DNA of 64,000 bases from Hymenobacter sp. 15J16-1T3B. GTDB lineage: Bacteria; Bacteroidota; Bacteroidia; Cytophagales; Hymenobacteraceae. The notes under the pieces were generated by a model. It saw only the letters and a program-made list of their open reading frames with translations. It was not told the DNA's origin and ran no database searches. Position numbers and translations under genes: made by a program. Each line of letters starts with the position of its first letter. Position 1 is the first letter of the stretch. Shown piece after piece: positions 25,874 through 58,045 of this stretch. The stretch covers positions 558,001 to 622,000 of the forward strand of contig NZ_JAJFAV010000001.1 of the NCBI RefSeq assembly GCF_020711235.1, read 5' to 3'.

Positions 25874-26983
25874 ATGACGCTGGACTCGCTGCACCTACTT
25901 TTTTTCAAGAATTACGACGAAGCCAACCTCACGCTTTCGCCTCACATCAACTGTTTTATCGGTGAGAACGGTAGCGGCAAGACCAACTTGCTTGATGCCA
26001 TCCATTACCTGTCGATGACCAAGAGTGCCTTCGCGGCCTCGGATGCTCAATGCTTGAAACAGGGGGGCGATTTTTTCCTCGTCAAAGGCCGCTTCAGCCT
26101 TCCCTCCTCTCTTACTCCCGATACCATTCAGTGCAGCTTGCGGGCCGGCCAGAAGAAGCTGGTCACGCACAACAAGCAGCCCTACGAGCGTATCTCCGAC
26201 CACATCGGCCGTTACCCGGTCGTCCTTATCTCCCCCTACGATACCGACCTTATACGACAGGGAAGCGAAGAACGCCGGAAGTATTTTGACAGTCTTATAT
26301 CCCAACTCGACCATTCTTACCTAGAGCTGCTTATTCAGTATAGCTTCGCCCTCAAGCAGCGCAATGCGCTACTCAAGCAGTTTGCCGAACGCCATACTTT
26401 CGACCGGGACTACTTGCAGGTATTGGACGAGCAGCTGGTGGTAGCCGGTACTCAGTTAGTAGTCATTCGGCAAAGTTTCCTGGAAGAGTTCGTACCGGTT
26501 TTCCAGCGTCATTACTTGGAGCTGGCTGATGGCCGCGAGGCTGTCACATTGGACTATAAGAGCCAGCTACCCGGTGAAGACTTTGCGCAGCTTTTGCGCC
26601 AGCAAGAGCGAAAAGATATAGCGTTGCAACGCACTTCGGTAGGTCCTCATAAAGACGACTACGTTTTCTTGATGGATGGTTCGCCGGTCAAAGGCTTCGG
26701 CTCGCAAGGGCAGCAGAAATCATATGCCATTGCGCTCAAGTTGGCCCAGTTCGAAATTATGGCCTCCAAGAAGCAGCATAAGCCTTTGCTCCTACTCGAC
26801 GACATCTTCGACCGTCTGGATGAGCGACGCATTAAACGCCTGCTGCAGCTGGTAGCGAACCACACCTTTGGCCAAGTATTTCTTACCGATACGCACCTCG
26901 ACCGCACTGACCAGGCCCTGGCTGGCTTATCAGAACAGGTAGCGCGTTTTCGAGTGGAAAACGGTAGAGTACATCCCCTATAG
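25874..26983 (+). CDS. recF: DNA replication/repair protein RecF
   Basis: The protein is 369 residues and an SMC-like ABC ATPase that loads RecA at gapped or stalled DNA. Walker A is GENGSGKTNLLDA near residue 30, the signature region holds TSVGPHKDDY and GSQGQQKS, and Walker B is LLLLDDIFDRLDERR. The gene is noticeably less GC-rich than its neighbours. It leads into the DUF721 gene 69 bp downstream, a pairing common in Bacteroidota. A nearby parS site at 27740 fits an origin-proximal position. Confidence 0.96.
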   Translation: MTLDSLHLLFFKNYDEANLTLSPHINCFIGENGSGKTNLLDAIHYLSMTKSAFAASDAQCLKQGGDFFLVKGRFSLPSSLTPDTIQCSLRAGQKKLVTHNKQPYERISDHIGRYPVVLISPYDTDLIRQGSEERRKYFDSLISQLDHSYLELLIQYSFALKQRNALLKQFAERHTFDRDYLQVLDEQLVVAGTQLVVIRQSFLEEFVPVFQRHYLELADGREAVTLDYKSQLPGEDFAQLLRQQERKDIALQRTSVGPHKDDYVFLMDGSPVKGFGSQGQQKSYAIALKLAQFEIMASKKQHKPLLLLDDIFDRLDERRIKRLLQLVANHTFGQVFLTDTHLDRTDQALAGLSEQVARFRVENGRVHPL

Positions 26984-26996
26984 GGGCTCCAGCCCG

Positions 26997-27004
26997 TACC
27001 TTTG
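26997..27004 (+). promoter_or_regulatory. Bacteroidota -7 element for the DUF721 gene
   Basis: TACCTTTG ends 48 bp before the proposed TTG start at 27053. It overlaps an in-frame TTG at 27002, which is therefore a poor start. Confidence 0.6.
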
Positions 27005-27052
27005 TTGCACGCAGCTGCCTGTAACTCTGCGCGATATTATAGCTCTTTTGCC

Positions 27053-27370
27053 TTGAAATCCCGCGCTAAAAACGAGTTTTCCCGCCAAGCCGAAGTAGTG
27101 CCGTTGAAGGATGGCATCCAGGCTTTGCTCAAAGCCTACCGCTTGCAAGGGAAAATGAACGAGGTATATGTGGTTTCTTCCTGGGAGCGAATCATGGGCC
27201 GGGCGGTAGCCCTAAAGACCCAAGAAGTCTACTTCCGCAATGGTAAGCTTTTTGTTCGCCTGACCTCCGCCCCACTTAAGCACGAGTTGGTCATGGCTAA
27301 AACTCGCGTGGCGGAAATTATCAACGCGGAAGTTGGAGAAGCCTTGGTGCAGGAAGTAGTGTTCCTATAA
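27053..27370 (+). CDS. DUF721 domain protein
   Basis: The product is about 105 residues. There is no ATG at the expected place; TTG at 27053 gives a start near KSRAKNEFSRQAEVVPLKD, which agrees with typical DUF721 lengths, while the upstream TTG at 27002 lies on the promoter. The conserved IQALLKAYRLQGKMNEVYVV, SWERIMGRAVAL and PLKHELVMAK blocks are all present. The function is unresolved; the gene often travels with recF. The hairpin at 27399 ends the unit. Confidence 0.82.
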   Translation: MKSRAKNEFSRQAEVVPLKDGIQALLKAYRLQGKMNEVYVVSSWERIMGRAVALKTQEVYFRNGKLFVRLTSAPLKHELVMAKTRVAEIINAEVGEALVQEVVFL

Positions 27371-27739: not shown

Positions 27740-27755
27740 TGTTCCACGTGAAACA
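27740..27755. promoter_or_regulatory. parS centromere site (ParB binding)
   Basis: TGTTCCACGTGAAACA matches the consensus TGTTNCACGTGAAACA at all fixed positions. parS sites are bound by ParB, which spreads and loads SMC, and they usually lie near the origin. No parA or parB gene is in this window. It sits 8 bp beyond the end of the HTH gene. Confidence 0.9.
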
Positions 27756-27762
27756 TTGGTGT

Positions 27763-28158
27763 TTACTTCGGCCCGTACACTTTTAACAGGAGCTCATTAT
27801 AGGCCTCAAGTAGGGCAATGTATTTGGCCTGCAGAGCCATCAAAGCCTTCACAGGATCCTGATCAACAGACTGTAATGCATTTTCCTTTACAGAGGCGGA
27901 ACGTGTTACGTTGTTAACCGAAGACGTTACAGATACAGGTGTAAAAGGCAAATGAGACTGTACAGGTGTATCAAAATCTTGTGTAAAATCGTGCTGTATC
28001 ACCTCACCAACACGCTTGACAAAATTGTAGTCAAGAGTTGTCTCTTTGAATTTACGATAAATAGTAGGTCGTGTAATACCGAGCTCCTGCACAATGCGAC
28101 TAATGGAAATACCACTGTTTTTGATGGCTTCCTGCAGAATTTCGCCTTGATGGGTCAT
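27763..28158 (-). CDS. Helix-turn-helix DNA-binding protein, AT-rich gene
   Basis: The protein is 131 residues from the ATG at 28158. The N-terminal helix-turn-helix reads ISISRIVQELGITRPTIYRK (about residues 17-36), Fis/resolvase-like in pattern. The middle is Ser/Thr/Val/Asn-rich and probably flexible. The C-terminal 30 residues (ALMALQAKYIALLEAYNELL) look helical or coiled-coil, perhaps for dimerisation. It is markedly AT-rich against its GC-rich neighbours. The upstream region carries an array of TGTAAC/GTTACA motifs and the parS site is just past its 3' end. I do not recognise the family; autoregulation or a segregation role are inferences. Confidence 0.75.
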   Translation of the reverse strand: MTHQGEILQEAIKNSGISISRIVQELGITRPTIYRKFKETTLDYNFVKRVGEVIQHDFTQDFDTPVQSHLPFTPVSVTSSVNNVTRSASVKENALQSVDQDPVKALMALQAKYIALLEAYNELLLKVYGPK

Positions 28159-28167
28159 GAAAAGGGC

Positions 28168-28353
28168 TGTAACGGAGCTAGAGTGTAAAGATGACAAATT
28201 TGTTAGATGTTGCAAAGAGACAATACAAAATCATATACAATACAAACTGTAACATCAACACTAATATGTAATGCGTAACAATGTTACATAACGTAATTTA
28301 CAGTTACACGTTGATAACTATGTTACAAATACGTGTAATACATATAGTGTAAC
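28168..28353. promoter_or_regulatory. TGTAAC/GTTACA motif array, probable operator region
   Basis: Six exact copies of TGTAAC or its complement occur in 186 bp at 28168, 28248, 28283, 28303, 28322 and 28348, against about 0.1 expected. Near-copies are at 28184, 28267 and 28334. GTAACAATGTTAC at 28275-28287 is a perfect palindrome about one base. The region is AT-rich and lies directly upstream of the HTH gene. Confidence 0.75.
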
Positions 28354-28483: not shown

Positions 28484-29341
28484 TTACGGTCGCAGCAGCT
28501 GTCTTATTCTATCTGGGTAATCAGTGGTGATACCATGTATCCCCATGGCGGCAACACGTTCAATGGCTGCCACGTCGTTGACAGTCCAAGTAATAATGGG
28601 GAGCTGGTGCGTGGCGCAAACATGCAGAAACGATTCATCGAGCAGTTGGTAGTCGGGGCCCAGAAAGTCGGGCTGGAATCCGAGTAGTTGTAGGTGGTTA
28701 GAAACAGGCAAATTGTCCTCGATAAGCAGGCATACAGGGTAAGGCAAAGCGCCACGGGCGCCCTGCACCACACGATGGTCAAACGACATTAGCAGGACCC
28801 GAAGGGACGCGGAAAGTTGACGCTGCGCCTGCGCAATAGCCTGCCCGACCCGTTCGACGAACTGGTGGGGCGTAGGCTGATAAAGCCCGTCGGCATCGGG
28901 GGCACTCTTCAGCTCAATGGAAAAAACCGGCAACGGACGGCCCAGCACTGCACACCGCGCCGCAACACTGCCGAATACCTCTGCCAGAGTGGGTTTATAT
29001 GCCGCACACGGTTGCTGCTCCGGGAAGTTTGGGTGGCGCAAGCGGCCACAGTCGCAGCTGCGTATGACGGCGTAGGGTTGCTGAAAGAGATTGAAAGCAC
29101 GGCCTTCTGCAGGCGTAAGAAGGGCGCCGTCGGGCCCCGTGCAGATGGCAGCGTTCAGCCACGGTTCATGAGAAACGACGACTTCGTTGTCGGCGGAGAT
29201 GACAACGTCCAGCTCCAGCCCATCAACGCCCCAATCAAGAGCGTGCAGGAAAGCAGGGAGGGTATTTTCGGGGCGCAGGCCGCGGCAGCCGCGGTGACCG
29301 AAGACCAAAGGGAGGTTGGGAAAATCAGAGGCTGCTAGCAT
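28484..29341 (-). CDS. Glycerophosphodiester phosphodiesterase family protein
   Basis: The product is 285 residues from the ATG at 29341; an upstream GTG two codons earlier is less likely. The TIM-barrel active site shows FGHRGCRGLRPENTLPAF (catalytic His and Arg-Pro-Glu-Asn), DGLELDVVIS (metal-binding Glu and Asp) and VVSHEPWL (second His). The C-terminal part has ITWTVND and GITTDYPDRI. These enzymes hydrolyse glycerophosphodiesters to glycerol 3-phosphate and an alcohol. No signal peptide is visible, so a cytoplasmic site is likely. It is divergent from the DUF2939 gene. Confidence 0.92.
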   Translation of the reverse strand: MLAASDFPNLPLVFGHRGCRGLRPENTLPAFLHALDWGVDGLELDVVISADNEVVVSHEPWLNAAICTGPDGALLTPAEGRAFNLFQQPYAVIRSCDCGRLRHPNFPEQQPCAAYKPTLAEVFGSVAARCAVLGRPLPVFSIELKSAPDADGLYQPTPHQFVERVGQAIAQAQRQLSASLRVLLMSFDHRVVQGARGALPYPVCLLIEDNLPVSNHLQLLGFQPDFLGPDYQLLDESFLHVCATHQLPIITWTVNDVAAIERVAAMGIHGITTDYPDRIRQLLRP

Positions 29342-29410
29342 GGTCACGCATACGCAGGCCGCGTCGACGCAGACATTGGACGGCCAGCTAGCAAGACTAG
29401 GGCAAAGCGG

Positions 29411-36588: not shown

Positions 36589-38595
36589 TTAAGCCAACTG
36601 CCGCCGGGCTACCGCAGCCCGAATATCCTCTGGCGAGTCTTTGGGAATGGCGGCCAACAGACGCTTGGTGTATTCGTGCTGGGGGTTGGCGTAGATGTCG
36701 GCGGCGTTGCCTTGCTCCACGATTTGTCCGGCGTTCATCACCAGCAGCCGGTCCGACATAAAGCGGGCCACCGACAGGTCGTGGGTGATGAAGAGGTAGG
36801 TAATGCCGAAGTCGCGCTTAAGGTCGTTGAGCAAGTTCAGTACCTGGGCCTGCACCGAGACATCCAGCGCCGAGACGGATTCGTCGCAGATGATGCACTT
36901 GGGTTGCAAGGCCAGCGCCCGGGCAATGCAGATGCGCTGCCGCTGGCCGCCGCTGAACTCGTGCGGGTAGCGCAAGTAATGTTCCTCCTTCAGCCCCACC
37001 GTGCGCAGCAGCTCCAGCACCCGCGCCTTTTGTTGGGCCTTGGTGCCGCCGACGTTGTGCACGCGCATCGGCTCCAAGATGGCTTCGCCCACGGTGAGCA
37101 TGGGGTTCAACGCCGCGTAGGGGTCCTGGAAGACCATTTGAAAGTCGCGGCGACGACGGCGCAGTTCCCCGGTTGAGAGCTTGGCCCAATCATCCCCTTC
37201 GAACAGAATGCTGCCGCTGGTGGGTTCTACCAACCGGAGGAGCGTCCGGCCGAGTGTGGTCTTGCCGCAGCCCGACTCACCCACCAGCCCCACTGTTTCG
37301 CCGCGGCGCACGTCGAAGCTTACGCCGTCGACGGCGCGCACTACTTCGGTAGCCCGTCCAAAGAAGCCCTTGCGCACAGGGTAGTGCACGCGCAGATCCT
37401 GCACGCGCAGCAGCACTTCCCCGGCCGGAGCGGCAGTAGCACTTGAGTCCTCCGCTCCTATCTCACTGAACGACGGCGCTGAAGTATCGGCCGGAACGAA
37501 GTTCACGGGTGCTGACGAAGCAGCTGGTGGCAGCTGTCCGGTTTCCAATAGTGGCGCATTTTCGAAGCCTTCAAAGGTATTGTCGAGCCGTGGAACAGCT
37601 GAATGTTCCACGGGAAACAATTTGCCAATGTCCTCGCTGTTCTGAGGGGACTCGACCGTTTGCGCAGCCACTTCGTTTGCAGGACTTTGCAGGACGGCAG
37701 CTTCTGTAACCGAGAAGCTACCCGAAGCGTCTTCCTGCATGAAATCGGCTACCGTCGGAAGTTTTTTTCGGCCCAGCGAAAGTTTTGGGCGGCAAGCCAG
37801 CAGCCCCTTGGTATAGGGGTGCTGGGGGTTGGTGAAGATGTCGAGCACCTTTCCCTGCTCCACCACCTTGCCGCGGTACATCACCAGGATGCGGTCAGCA
37901 ATTTCCGCCACCACGCCCAGGTCGTGGGTAATAAAGAGCACGGCCGTGTTGCGCTGCCGGCGCAGGTCGTCGATGAGTTGCAGGATGCGGGCCTGCACTG
38001 TCACGTCGAGGGCGGTGGTGGGCTCGTCGGCAATGAGGACGGCGGGCTGGCAGGCCATAGCCATGGCAATCATCACCCGCTGCTTTTGCCCGCCGCTGAT
38101 TTCGTGGGGGTAGCTCTTGAAGATTTTCTCCGGCCGGGGCAGCTGCGCTTCGGTGAACAACTCAATGGTGCGGGCCTCGGCTTCCTGCTTGCTAAGCGTG
38201 GTGTGCAGCCGTAGAGCTTCCACGACTTGCGCCCCGCAGGTGTGCACGGGGTTCAAAGAGGTCATGGGCTCCTGGAAGATGAACGATATTTCGTTGCCGC
38301 GCACCCGCTGCAGCTCGGTTTCGGAGAGACGCAGCAAATCAACTTCCCTGCCCAGCGCTTCGGACTGAAAGCGTGCTTCTCCCCCACTCAGCCGGCCGGG
38401 CGGCATAGCAATCAGCCCGAGCATGGCCAGCGAGGTCACCGACTTGCCCGAACCCGACTCGCCCACGATGGCCACCGTCTCGCCGGCGCGCAGCTGAAAC
38501 GACACACCTTCCACGGCCCGCGTCAGGCCGTACTGCGAGGCAAAGTCGATGGTCAGGTCGCGGACGTCGAGAAGCACGGAATTGGCGGTTTGCAC
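36589..38595 (-). CDS. Double ABC-ATPase of peptide/nickel transport type
   Basis: The product is 668 residues with two nucleotide-binding domains in one chain, each with Walker A (GESGSGKS and GESGCGKT), a signature (SGGQKQR and SGGQRQR) and a Walker B ([11 protein letters not shown] and [11 protein letters not shown]). The layout is that of DppD-DppF fusions such as GsiA/YejF, which energise uptake of oligopeptides or similar solutes. A 120-residue variable linker (about 280-395) separates them. No permease or binding protein gene is adjacent. The start is taken as GTG 38595; no ATG is near. Its linker carries a parS-like sequence at 37604. Confidence 0.92.
37604..37619. promoter_or_regulatory. 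parS-like sequence, one mismatch, inside the ABC gene
   Basis: TGTTCCACGGGAAACA differs from the parS consensus only at one central base (CACGTG to CACGGG). It lies in the variable linker of the ABC ATPase gene, 9.9 kb from the perfect site at 27740. A chance match is possible but unlikely. Confidence 0.45.
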
Positions 38596-50503: not shown

Positions 50504-50546
50504 TTATCCACTTATCAACATCAAAAAGAGCTGATTTTGTGGATAA
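50504..50546. promoter_or_regulatory. DnaA-box cluster A
   Basis: Three DnaA-box-like sites lie within 43 bp: TTATCCACT (50504-50512), TTATCAACA (50512-50520) and TGTGGATAA (50538-50546), the last a perfect TTATCCACA on the minus strand. The surrounding bases are AT-rich. It is 1.4 kb to the left of the main origin-like region. Confidence 0.7.
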
Positions 50547-51686: not shown

Positions 51687-51839
51687 AGCAGCACTCCGAC
51701 ACGCGTCGGCGGGCTGTATACGCACGCGCGGCGCCGGCGGCTGAACCCTCGGCTTGCCCGGGCCGGCTTTTCCTTGCGGCCCCGTTCGGCTGTCCGCTGC
51801 GCCGGCGGCCCGGCCGCTTGCCGAGCGGAACGCACAGGG

Positions 51840-52460
51840 TTACAGGCGTTCATCCTCCTGTGAGCCTGTGAGTTCTGGCCGGGGTTTTCCACGGGACTAA
51901 TAACTTTTCATTAAATAAAATTTTAAAGCTCTTTTCTATTTCCACTCGTTATGGCTGTTCATAAGTGGATATCTAACAGGCTTATACACAGGGCTTGATA
52001 ACATGTGTACAAGAACCGGCTTATGCACCGGCTATCCACATAGGATGTGCAAATTACAGGGGTGATACTCTGTCAATTAACAGGCTTTTCGACAATCCAC
52101 ACACTTGTGCACAACCCTGTGAATTAACACGTTAGTGGAAAGTGGAAAGCCCCAAAATCGTGGGGAAGTTGTCCACGGCTGTCCACAGGCCGCGGGCACT
52201 GGTATGGGCTCAACAGGACCAAAAAATCTTTTCCCCTGTTTATCCCCTGTTGTTCACAGGTTATCAAAGCGTTATCCACGCGTTATCCCCTGTCGACTGA
52301 CCAAGCCGGGTTTGGAGGGTCAAGAATTCCACAATAGGCTGTGGAAACGTGGATAAGTGCCTGTGAGCCTGTAAGAAGGCCCTTGATAATCAGGGTATAG
52401 TTACCTGTTCGAATATGGATTGGCGCGGCCTGGTCGGACCTATGCCACAGGTTCACAGGT
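51840..52460. other. Candidate chromosomal replication origin (oriC), main cluster
   Basis: A 620-bp non-coding stretch holds an AT-rich block (about 51898-51950, unusual in this GC-rich DNA) and many DnaA-box-like sites. The closest to TTATCCACA are TTATACACA (51982-51990), CTATCCACA (52032-52040), TTATCCACG (52272-52280) and CGTGGATAA (52348-52356), each one base off; further 7-of-9 sites lie at 52105, 52169, 52179 and 52250. It also has 19 copies of ACAGG or CCTGT. An mnmG gene lies 4 kb to the right, as often near origins. No dnaA is in this window, so the assignment rests on sequence pattern alone. Confidence 0.85.
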
Positions 52461-56179: not shown

Positions 56180-58045
56180 CTACTTGCCCAAGTACACCAT
56201 CAGCACCGAGATGTCGGCGGGCGAGATGCCGCTGATGCGCGAGGCCTGCCCGATGGTTTCGGGCTGGATGCGCAGCAGCTTTTCGCGGGCTTCGTGCGAG
56301 AGGGCCGGCATGGCCTTGTAGTCCAGCTTACCCACGATGCGCAGGTCTTCCATCTGGCCCATGCGCTCGGCTTGCTGGTGCTCCTTCTCGATGTAGGTTT
56401 CGTACTTGACGTGGATGCTGGCCTGCTTCAGCACTTCTGCGCCGTAGCTGCTCAGGTACTCGTTCAGCTCCGGCAGGGCGCGCTGCAGGTCGGGCAAATC
56501 GAGCTGCGGGCGGCGCAGCAGGTTCACCACGCGGGTTTTCTCGTGAATGGGGGCCGAACCCAGCTCTTCCAGCAAGCCGTTGATTTCGCCCGGCTCCACC
56601 GGCTTCTTGCTCAGGTAATCGAGCACGTCGGCGGTTTGCTGGCGCTTCTGCTCCACCCGGGCCATGCGCTCATCCGAGGCCAGCCCAAGCTTGTGGGCCA
56701 GCGGGGTGAGGCGCAGGTCGGCGTTGTCCTGGCGGAGCAGGATGCGGTGCTCGGCCCGGGAAGTAAACATGCGGTAGGGCTCGTCGGTGCCTTTGTTGAC
56801 GAGGTCGTCAATGAGCACGCCGATGTAGGCCTCCGAGCGGCGCAGGATGAACGGCTCCAGCTCCCGCACCCGCTGGTGGGCGTTGATGCCGGCCATCAGG
56901 CCCTGGCAGGCAGCTTCCTCGTAGCCCGTCGTGCCGTTGATCTGGCCGGCGAAGTAGAGGTTGCGCACCGGCTTGGTCTCCAGCGTCAAGTGCAGCTGCG
57001 TGGGCGGGAAGAAGTCGTACTCGATGGCGTAGCCGGGGCGGAACATCTTCGCGTTTTCGAAGCCCGCAATCTGGCGCAGCGCCTCGTACTGCACGTCTTC
57101 GGGCAAGCTGCTGCTAAAGCCGTTTACGTACACTTCCACCGTGCTCCAACCCTCGGGCTCCACGAAAATCTGGTGGCGGTCCTTGTCGGCGAAGCGGTTG
57201 ATTTTGTCTTCCACCGAAGGGCAATAGCGCGGCCCCAGGCCCTTGATGCGGCCTTGGAACATCGGCGACTTTTCGAAGCCGGTGCGCAGGATGTCGTGCA
57301 CCTTCTCGTTGGTGTAGGTGATGTAGCAGGGGCGCTGCTTGGTGAGCTGGGGCGTATCGAGGTAGGAGAACTTGCTCGGGTTTTCGTCACCGGCCTGCTC
57401 CTCCATCTTCGAGTAGTCGAGCGTGCGGCCGTCCACGCGGGGCGGGGTGCCCGTCTTCATGCGGCCCGTCTCGAAGCCCAGCTCCCGCAGCTGCTCGGTG
57501 ATGCCGGTGCTTTTGCGCTCCGCCGCCCGGCCGCCGCCGAAGTTTTTCTCGCCGATGTGGATGAGCCCGTTCAGGAAGGTGCCGTTGGTCAGCACCACGG
57601 TTTTGCTCCGAAATTCGATACCGAGCTGGGTGCGCACGCCCACGCAGGTGCCGTCTTCCACCAGCAGGCCGGTCACGGCTTCCTGCCAGAAGTCCACGTT
57701 GCGGATGCCTTCCAGCGTCAGGCGCCATTCTTCGGCGAAGCGCATCCGGTCGCTCTGGGCGCGGGGGCTCCACATGGCGGGGCCCTTCGAGCGGTTGAGC
57801 ATCCGGAACTGAATCATCGTTTTGTCGGTGATGATGCCCGACTGCCCGCCCAGCGCGTCCACCTCGCGCACAATCTGTCCCTTGGCCACCCCGCCCATGG
57901 CCGGGTTGCACGACATCTGCGCGATGGTGTTCATGTTCATGGTCACGAGCAGCACCGAGGAGCCAAGATTGGCTGCCGCCGCGGCCGCTTCGCAGCCGGC
58001 GTGGCCGGCGCCTACCACAATTACATCGTATTCCTGGGTCAGCAT
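56180..58045 (-). CDS. mnmG: tRNA uridine-5-carboxymethylaminomethyl(34) synthesis enzyme MnmG
   Basis: The protein is 621 residues, usual for MnmG (GidA). With MnmE it adds the carboxymethylaminomethyl group to U34 of several tRNAs. The FAD fold reads VIVVGAGHAGCEAAAAAANL, and the conserved MSCNPAMGGVAKGQIVREVD, YCPSVEDKINRFADKDRHQI and ATGITEQ-type segments follow, ending in ISGISPADISVLMVYL. The gene often lies near oriC, in keeping with the origin-like region 4 kb away. The start at 58045 is the normal MLTQEYDVIVVGAGH. Confidence 0.97.
   Translation of the reverse strand: MLTQEYDVIVVGAGHAGCEAAAAAANLGSSVLLVTMNMNTIAQMSCNPAMGGVAKGQIVREVDALGGQSGIITDKTMIQFRMLNRSKGPAMWSPRAQSDRMRFAEEWRLTLEGIRNVDFWQEAVTGLLVEDGTCVGVRTQLGIEFRSKTVVLTNGTFLNGLIHIGEKNFGGGRAAERKSTGITEQLRELGFETGRMKTGTPPRVDGRTLDYSKMEEQAGDENPSKFSYLDTPQLTKQRPCYITYTNEKVHDILRTGFEKSPMFQGRIKGLGPRYCPSVEDKINRFADKDRHQIFVEPEGWSTVEVYVNGFSSSLPEDVQYEALRQIAGFENAKMFRPGYAIEYDFFPPTQLHLTLETKPVRNLYFAGQINGTTGYEEAACQGLMAGINAHQRVRELEPFILRRSEAYIGVLIDDLVNKGTDEPYRMFTSRAEHRILLRQDNADLRLTPLAHKLGLASDERMARVEQKRQQTADVLDYLSKKPVEPGEINGLLEELGSAPIHEKTRVVNLLRRPQLDLPDLQRALPELNEYLSSYGAEVLKQASIHVKYETYIEKEHQQAERMGQMEDLRIVGKLDYKAMPALSHEAREKLLRIQPETIGQASRISGISPADISVLMVYLGK

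Follow-up and report, generated by a model that had tools for sequence, protein, structure and literature searches.

KfrA of plasmid RA3 is described as an autoregulator made of an N-terminal helix-turn-helix (HTH) and a helical tail, with an operator of five 9-bp repeats that overlap the promoter, occur in both orientations and are absent elsewhere in the plasmid (PMC7783346). The same source reports contact of KfrA with KorB (ParB), a weaker one with IncC (ParA), and a requirement for its DNA binding in stable plasmid maintenance (PMC7783346). RacA of Bacillus subtilis is an HTH protein that oligomerises and binds centromere-like ram sites near the origin, and these sites are dense there yet spread over the chromosome (PMC6593407). 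RocS and pSK1 Par are single DNA-binding proteins that act in segregation; both are reported to hold DUF536, and RocS to join an HTH and a coiled coil to a membrane-binding amphipathic helix (PMC11500499). In addition, according to a review, ParB is stopped from spreading by proteins that bind DNA tightly (PMC7333895).

The locus analyzed here lies in the window, by which we mean the whole 64,000-nucleotide stretch that was studied, and it joins a small HTH gene to a parS site and to an array of short repeats.

25874-26983, plus strand: recF, a conserved neighbour
27002-27370, plus strand: dciA (PF05258), a conserved neighbour on the parS side
27740-27755: parS, TGTTCCACGTGAAACA, 7 bp past the stop codon of the HTH gene and the sole match to TGTTYCACGTGRAACA in the genome
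27763-28158, minus strand: HTH gene of 131 aa, with its ATG at 28158
27926-28000: four TGTAWC/GWTACA sites in the HTH gene (codons 53, 63, 74 and 76), in the linker and just before it
28168-28353: irregularly spaced and oriented array of six TGTAAC/GTTACA sites upstream of the HTH gene; seen from parS, it lies towards the DnaA-box cluster
28185-28216, minus strand: putative Bacteroidetes-type promoter (TTTG at 28213-28216, a 19-bp spacer, and CATCTTTAC at 28185-28193)
28484-29347, minus strand: gdpd (glycerophosphodiester phosphodiesterase), the neighbour on the array side

We identified 27740-27755 with the parS consensus, and such a site is nearly always single in the genomes searched for it. 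The TGTTYCACGTGRAACA pattern occurred exactly once in 16 of 17 genomes and was absent from the remaining one, and in one genus (g5) 119 of 120 genomes had exactly one match to the YGTTYCACGTGRAACA pattern. The exception in that genus, G143, is 83% complete and matches only an HTH paralog; a match to the HTH protein was found in 120/120 g5 genomes, counting G143 (the paralog) and G152, where the gene is apparently split between contigs. Among the 80 loci described below, the parS palindrome carries at most one mismatch in 74 and two in 6. The ParB family TIGR00180 scored above its cut-off in all eight genomes searched, five of them in the Hymenobacter group, and the ParB gene is located away from the HTH/parS locus. 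Separately, a weaker parS-like site with two mismatches, TGTTCCACGGGAAACA, was seen at 37604-37619, about 10 kb from parS and inside an ABC-transporter gene. Sites of this type occur in five of the eight g1 genomes (the window, L066:10570, L088:19078, L063:11574 and L065:11218) and may be mere coding conservation. At L009-L011, L104 and L108, parS forms the centre of a longer near-palindrome that overlaps the stop codon and is perhaps also a terminator hairpin.

Conservation of the module was followed in two sets of genomes. A first survey found a match to the HTH protein in 23 of 58 genomes, the source genome included, and 14 of the matches were close orthologues, from all eight g1 genomes and all six g5 genomes. 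The HTH gene is surrounded by dciA, gdpd, the motif and parS in 14/14 of these, and recF falls within the 3.4-kb locus in 13. A second scan found 94 relatives, from which 80 loci were kept, all from Hymenobacter or Solirubrum; eight of the 14 first-survey loci appear to be among the 80 as well. Here the parS start lies 5-8 bp past the HTH stop codon in 80/80 loci (at 6 bp in 63), at least two motif sites stand upstream of the gene in 80/80, recF and dciA are near it in 80/80 and gdpd in 73/80, counts that are not independent because the loci share ancestry. Around the g3 HTH homologues of L076, L077 and L079 no parS was found in the 20-kb stretches taken, and upstream k-mers gave no array ahead of five g3 homologues. 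As a further observation on this family, two DnaA boxes stand just upstream of the g3 homologues at L076:10199 and 10326, L077:10180 and 10200, and L079:9607 and 9735.

The upstream array is best described by its density. TGTAAC/GTTACA occurs at 28168, 28248, 28283, 28303, 28322 and 28348, which bears out the six copies in 186 bp that the first-pass annotation of this DNA had reported. Its expectation of about 0.1 copies ignored the local AT-richness, as dinucleotide shuffles of the 186-bp stretch held 0.70 copies on average, but the clustering that it described stands, with a maximum of 4 copies in the shuffles and six reached in 0/5000. The perfect palindrome with a one-base centre that it had placed at 28275-28287 was found there as GTAACA-A-TGTTAC. 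The window as a whole shows no enrichment of the motif (14 copies vs. 13 expected), and clustering is what stands out. The enriched unit is TGTAWC followed by A or G, that is TGTAWC(R), so TGTATC also counts. No single dimer spacing or orientation of TGTAWC sites is fixed in either the 14 or the 80 loci; in the 80 loci, pairs that face each other (minus then plus) are modestly over-represented at 15-16 and 26-27 bp, an excess that shared ancestry could produce.

All 80 loci have the array, with 2-10 sites per 260 bp upstream of the HTH gene (mean 5.2) as compared to 0.06 elsewhere in the loci, and site density peaks at -200 to -50 and at +200 to +300 relative to the gene. A weaker tail of 41 sites in the 80 loci falls within 200 bp past the HTH stop codon, mostly beyond parS, and the array is therefore not strictly one-sided. 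When six whole genomes were searched for close pairs, the largest TGTAWC site cluster was the HTH/parS locus in each, and the site pairs outside it were scattered at roughly the rate of control patterns. In 20-kb stretches, clusters of at least four sites were all at the HTH/parS locus, with a single exception in the g3 genome L079, where the cluster lies about 0.5 kb beyond the HTH homologue. Five smaller groups of 3-4 sites each (G028:C16:231874, G016:C2:444435, G005:C1:3040811, G004:C1:3729494 and G020:C1:3096221) imply that the HTH protein may have other targets. One three-site TGTAAC group is alike in two genera (G005:C1:3040811-3040867 and G016:C2:444435-444491) and is a possible second target. 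Three near-identical palindromes of the form TGTAACACTTTAAAGTGTTACA, at G016:C1:1629128, 2285528 and 2314565, are perhaps the sites of another regulator.

Sites also occur inside the reading frame, at a frequency beyond that given by codon use. The 80 genes hold 347 in-gene sites, whereas 500 synonymous shuffles averaged 130 and never exceeded 153, and linker codons hold 302 of the 347. For the 14-genome set the sum was 56 vs. 18.7, a value reached in 0/2000 synonymous shuffles; gene by gene, the same test gave p < 0.05 in 10 of the 14 and missed it in 4. The linker contains 236 Val-Thr pairs across the 80 loci where 76 are expected from composition, and 193 of the 236 are coded GTTACA or GTAACA, with the GTAACA codon pair making a site only when a T precedes it. 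The protein, with its Val-Thr-rich disordered linker, seems to have been moulded by the DNA array that its own codons carry.

We then consider the protein itself. Its first Met is invariant among 54 aligned sequences, and in the model a four-helix HTH domain lies within residues 4-54, a single C-terminal helix of 27 residues spans 102-128, and the linker is disordered (pLDDT below 50 at 69-97). Foldseek with the HTH domain placed SinR, HipB and 434 Cro near the top, at a probability of about 0.89-0.99 and weak E values of about 0.09-0.3, with none at E ≤ 0.001. HTH_7 (resolvase type) was the sole Pfam family above its cut-off, and the 15 Pfam families at E ≤ 1 included no match to the KfrA family, MerR, DUF536 or Rep families. 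A PDB sequence search was uninformative (best E 0.054), and no informative relative came from searches of plasmids, phages, NCBIfam or PHROG, which gave zero phage matches and one weak plasmid match. GC content in the 80-locus set is 0.43 for the HTH gene and 0.37 for its upstream region vs. 0.56 for the loci, and paralogs are present in some genomes, both of which would suit a recently acquired AT-rich gene, such as a mobile-element regulator, with an array that only reflects AT-rich foreign DNA. We consider this very improbable: the gene sits in the same place in all 80 loci, a conserved synteny that speaks strongly against it, the phage and plasmid searches point the same way, and the motif is enriched above both dinucleotide and synonymous shuffles.

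The paralogs bear on what binds the array. We fetched 20 of 23 paralog rows, which are more distant HTH family members. Where the recognition helix is SRPTLYRR or close to it, a site occurs in the 270 bp upstream in 11 of 14 paralogs, compared with 0 of 6 with other helices, although the paralogs were sorted by helix post hoc, after the sites had been seen, and close paralogs share upstream DNA. Overall, paralog upstream regions hold 0.77 sites per 260 bp vs. 0.10 elsewhere. The presence of the motif upstream of paralogs with alike recognition helices supports self-binding, and the post hoc sorting and kinship of the paralogs weaken that support. We infer, with the paralogs in support, that the HTH protein binds the array. 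A different protein, such as a nucleoid or origin-region factor, could in principle bind it with the HTH gene merely lying inside, and the array does span both the gene and its upstream region; the split of upstream motifs by recognition helix, post hoc as it is, argues against such a factor, which we regard as improbable. Several paralogous HTH genes (L207-L226) share a palindrome like TGAGACAAATATGATACATAAATGTCTCA near -120, which is likely an operator family.

Many HTH proteins autoregulate, and the main rival to a centromeric role is that this one is a plain regulator that represses or activates transcription from its own promoter, and possibly from a small number of other promoters, through clusters of sites. 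On this view parS lies beside it because the intergenic spot is origin-proximal and was fixed there once, with no functional link. A putative promoter does lie between the upstream array and the ATG. It was assigned with the Bacteroidetes promoter consensus, and the loose pattern TTTG-N18-20-nATnTTT, which was picked after the alignment had been viewed, occurs upstream of the HTH gene in 55/80 loci vs. 0.75/80 in base-shuffled ones. Paralogs elsewhere carry 1-3 upstream sites in 11 of 20 cases, some of them palindromic, and the small group shared by G005 and G016 may be a further target. As these paralogs lie away from parS, autoregulation alone accounts for part of the array. It leaves unexplained, however, the unbroken tie of 5-8 bp to the only parS in 80/80 loci, the roughly ten sites where paralogs have 0-3, and the enrichment in linker codons, and we think it unlikely as the whole account. 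The paralogs point to autoregulation in the HTH family, with the parS-linked member having apparently expanded its operator. Autoregulation, which the first-pass annotation had raised and then set aside, is thus favoured by the paralogs and is probably part of the truth.

We placed the origin with DnaA boxes because GC skew, sampled as 20 pieces of 20 kb from G020, was too noisy to locate it.

51801-52400: DnaA-box cluster, probable oriC, 20 boxes with at most two mismatches in 600 bp, about 24 kb from parS

A cluster of this kind lies 22.3-28.0 kb from parS in 10/10 group genomes (the source and nine others), with a weight of 24-43, while no weight above 11 was seen in 43 other 20-kb stretches. 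This background omits L074 and L075, with weights of 13 and 17, in which the parS region of two relatives lies. Seen from parS, the array lies towards the DnaA-box cluster in every one of the ten genomes. The dnaA gene was tried as an origin marker and rejected, being on another contig in the source genome and far off on the same long contig in four other group genomes searched. Beside a phosphate transporter, the 43 bp at 50504-50546 hold three more DnaA boxes, one of them exact and the other two with a single mismatch; the main cluster is about 1.3 kb away.

The proximity of the array to recF and dciA and its AT-richness could suggest an iteron-type origin opened by the HTH protein as a replication initiator. 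We give this very little credence, as the DnaA-box cluster is 22-28 kb away and only five boxes with at most two mismatches lie between 27300 and 28500, the Pfam scan found no Rep family, and the sites are irregularly spaced, unlike iterons. The likeness to iterons that the first-pass annotation had seen fails on the same irregular spacing and orientation and the lack of a Rep match. Its other statements on the setting agree with our results: a parS does adjoin the gene, at 27740-27755; relatives keep the gene, its array and parS side by side, as the check that it proposed required, in all 80 loci and all 14 first-survey orthologues; the module is origin-proximal by the DnaA-box cluster in 10/10 genomes; and, as its term undescribed suggested, we found no paper on Hymenobacter and parS or ParB in the open-licence literature. 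The annotation did not include the TGTATC variant, the four sites within the gene, the uniqueness of the parS match in the genome or the DnaA-box cluster some 24 kb away. Its interpretation is thus partly supported by our results, with the segregation role a proposal.

The position of parS differs in related genera. Outside the group, an exact parS was found in 21 of 28 relatives and none in 7, and it adjoins mnmG in 21/21 of those that have it. The distance from parS to the first aligned codon of mnmG is 15-30 bp in 20 of the 21 and about 450 bp in L198, a genome with two parS sites.

56180-58045, minus strand: mnmG, with no parS beside it in the window

The dciA gene was found in 8/8 outside relatives searched, with recF beside it in 7/8, and neither an HTH gene nor gdpd lay within 1.5 kb of dciA in any of the eight. 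Since parS stands beside mnmG in the relatives, the centromere has apparently moved. The mnmG side is likely the older place (L178-L197), and in the simplest history that these sequences allow, parS apparently left mnmG for a new HTH module in the ancestor of the Hymenobacter group. In the open-licence PMC literature we found nothing on point about mnmG relocation, gidA in Bacteroidetes or conserved synteny.

Based on the array, its conservation and the paralogs, we propose that the HTH protein would control its own transcription by binding about ten TGTAWC(R) half-sites, which are spread across the region upstream of its gene and across its linker codons. The C-terminal helix would drive assembly of a nucleoprotein complex that abuts the sole parS, mainly on the oriC side. 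This complex would serve as an accessory partition factor. It could limit or direct how ParB spreads and SMC is loaded, or it could bridge or tether the centromere. The sequences themselves show the conserved linkage, the array and its in-frame enrichment above codon usage, the lone parS and a place for it unlike that in related genera; oligomerisation, an effect on ParB and a role in segregation are steps that we infer. Because the array lies mostly on one side of parS and tight binders block ParB spreading, it is plausible as a boundary to that spreading. We lean, with confidence a little above even, towards an autoregulated, self-targeting HTH nucleoprotein array that serves as an accessory partition factor in the centromere module of the Hymenobacter group.

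A fuller account can be offered more tentatively, and we rate it somewhat short of an even chance. At the base of the group, the sole centromere would have left mnmG and become linked to a gene that is itself bound, within its coding sequence, by the protein it encodes. Such a gene would be both source and seat of a centromere chromatin common to the whole group, which would help to fix where the ParB domain ends towards oriC. This DNA-level function would have shaped the protein, whose Val-Thr-rich linker is spelled by the sites. With a single parS and a single large array in each genome, the module would make a simple natural system for studying what bounds or directs the spreading of ParB and why a bacterial centromere relocates, and the arrangement suggests that a disordered linker can be moulded by binding sites in its codons.

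In comparison with known systems, the locus has two features of a chromosomal ParABS partition locus, with a canonical parS near oriC (by DnaA boxes) and a chromosomal ParB present. XRE/Cro-C1-like regulators such as SinR and HipB rank near the top for the HTH domain in Foldseek, at weak E values, and upstream sites occur as they do in the paralogs; unlike such regulators, the gene has about ten sites extending into its own reading frame and a fixed parS alongside. RacA has a MerR-like domain and the HTH protein has no MerR match; unlike the ram sites, its sites form one large cluster at one locus in six genomes. It also differs from RocS and pSK1 Par in having no DUF536 match and in coexisting with a canonical ParB and a single parS. 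RacA and RocS are therefore looser analogues than KfrA, with which the HTH protein shares, by sequence, an HTH followed by a helical tail and a repetitive set of short sites at its own promoter. KfrA is plasmid-borne with a tail of about 300 residues, whereas the HTH gene is chromosomal and encodes 131 aa with one 27-residue tail helix (102-128) in place of a long coiled coil, carries sites inside its reading frame, has parS 5-8 bp past its stop codon and shows no KfrA family match. If our reading is correct, the module would be a chromosomal counterpart of plasmid KfrA, with a dedicated self-targeting protein at the centromere.
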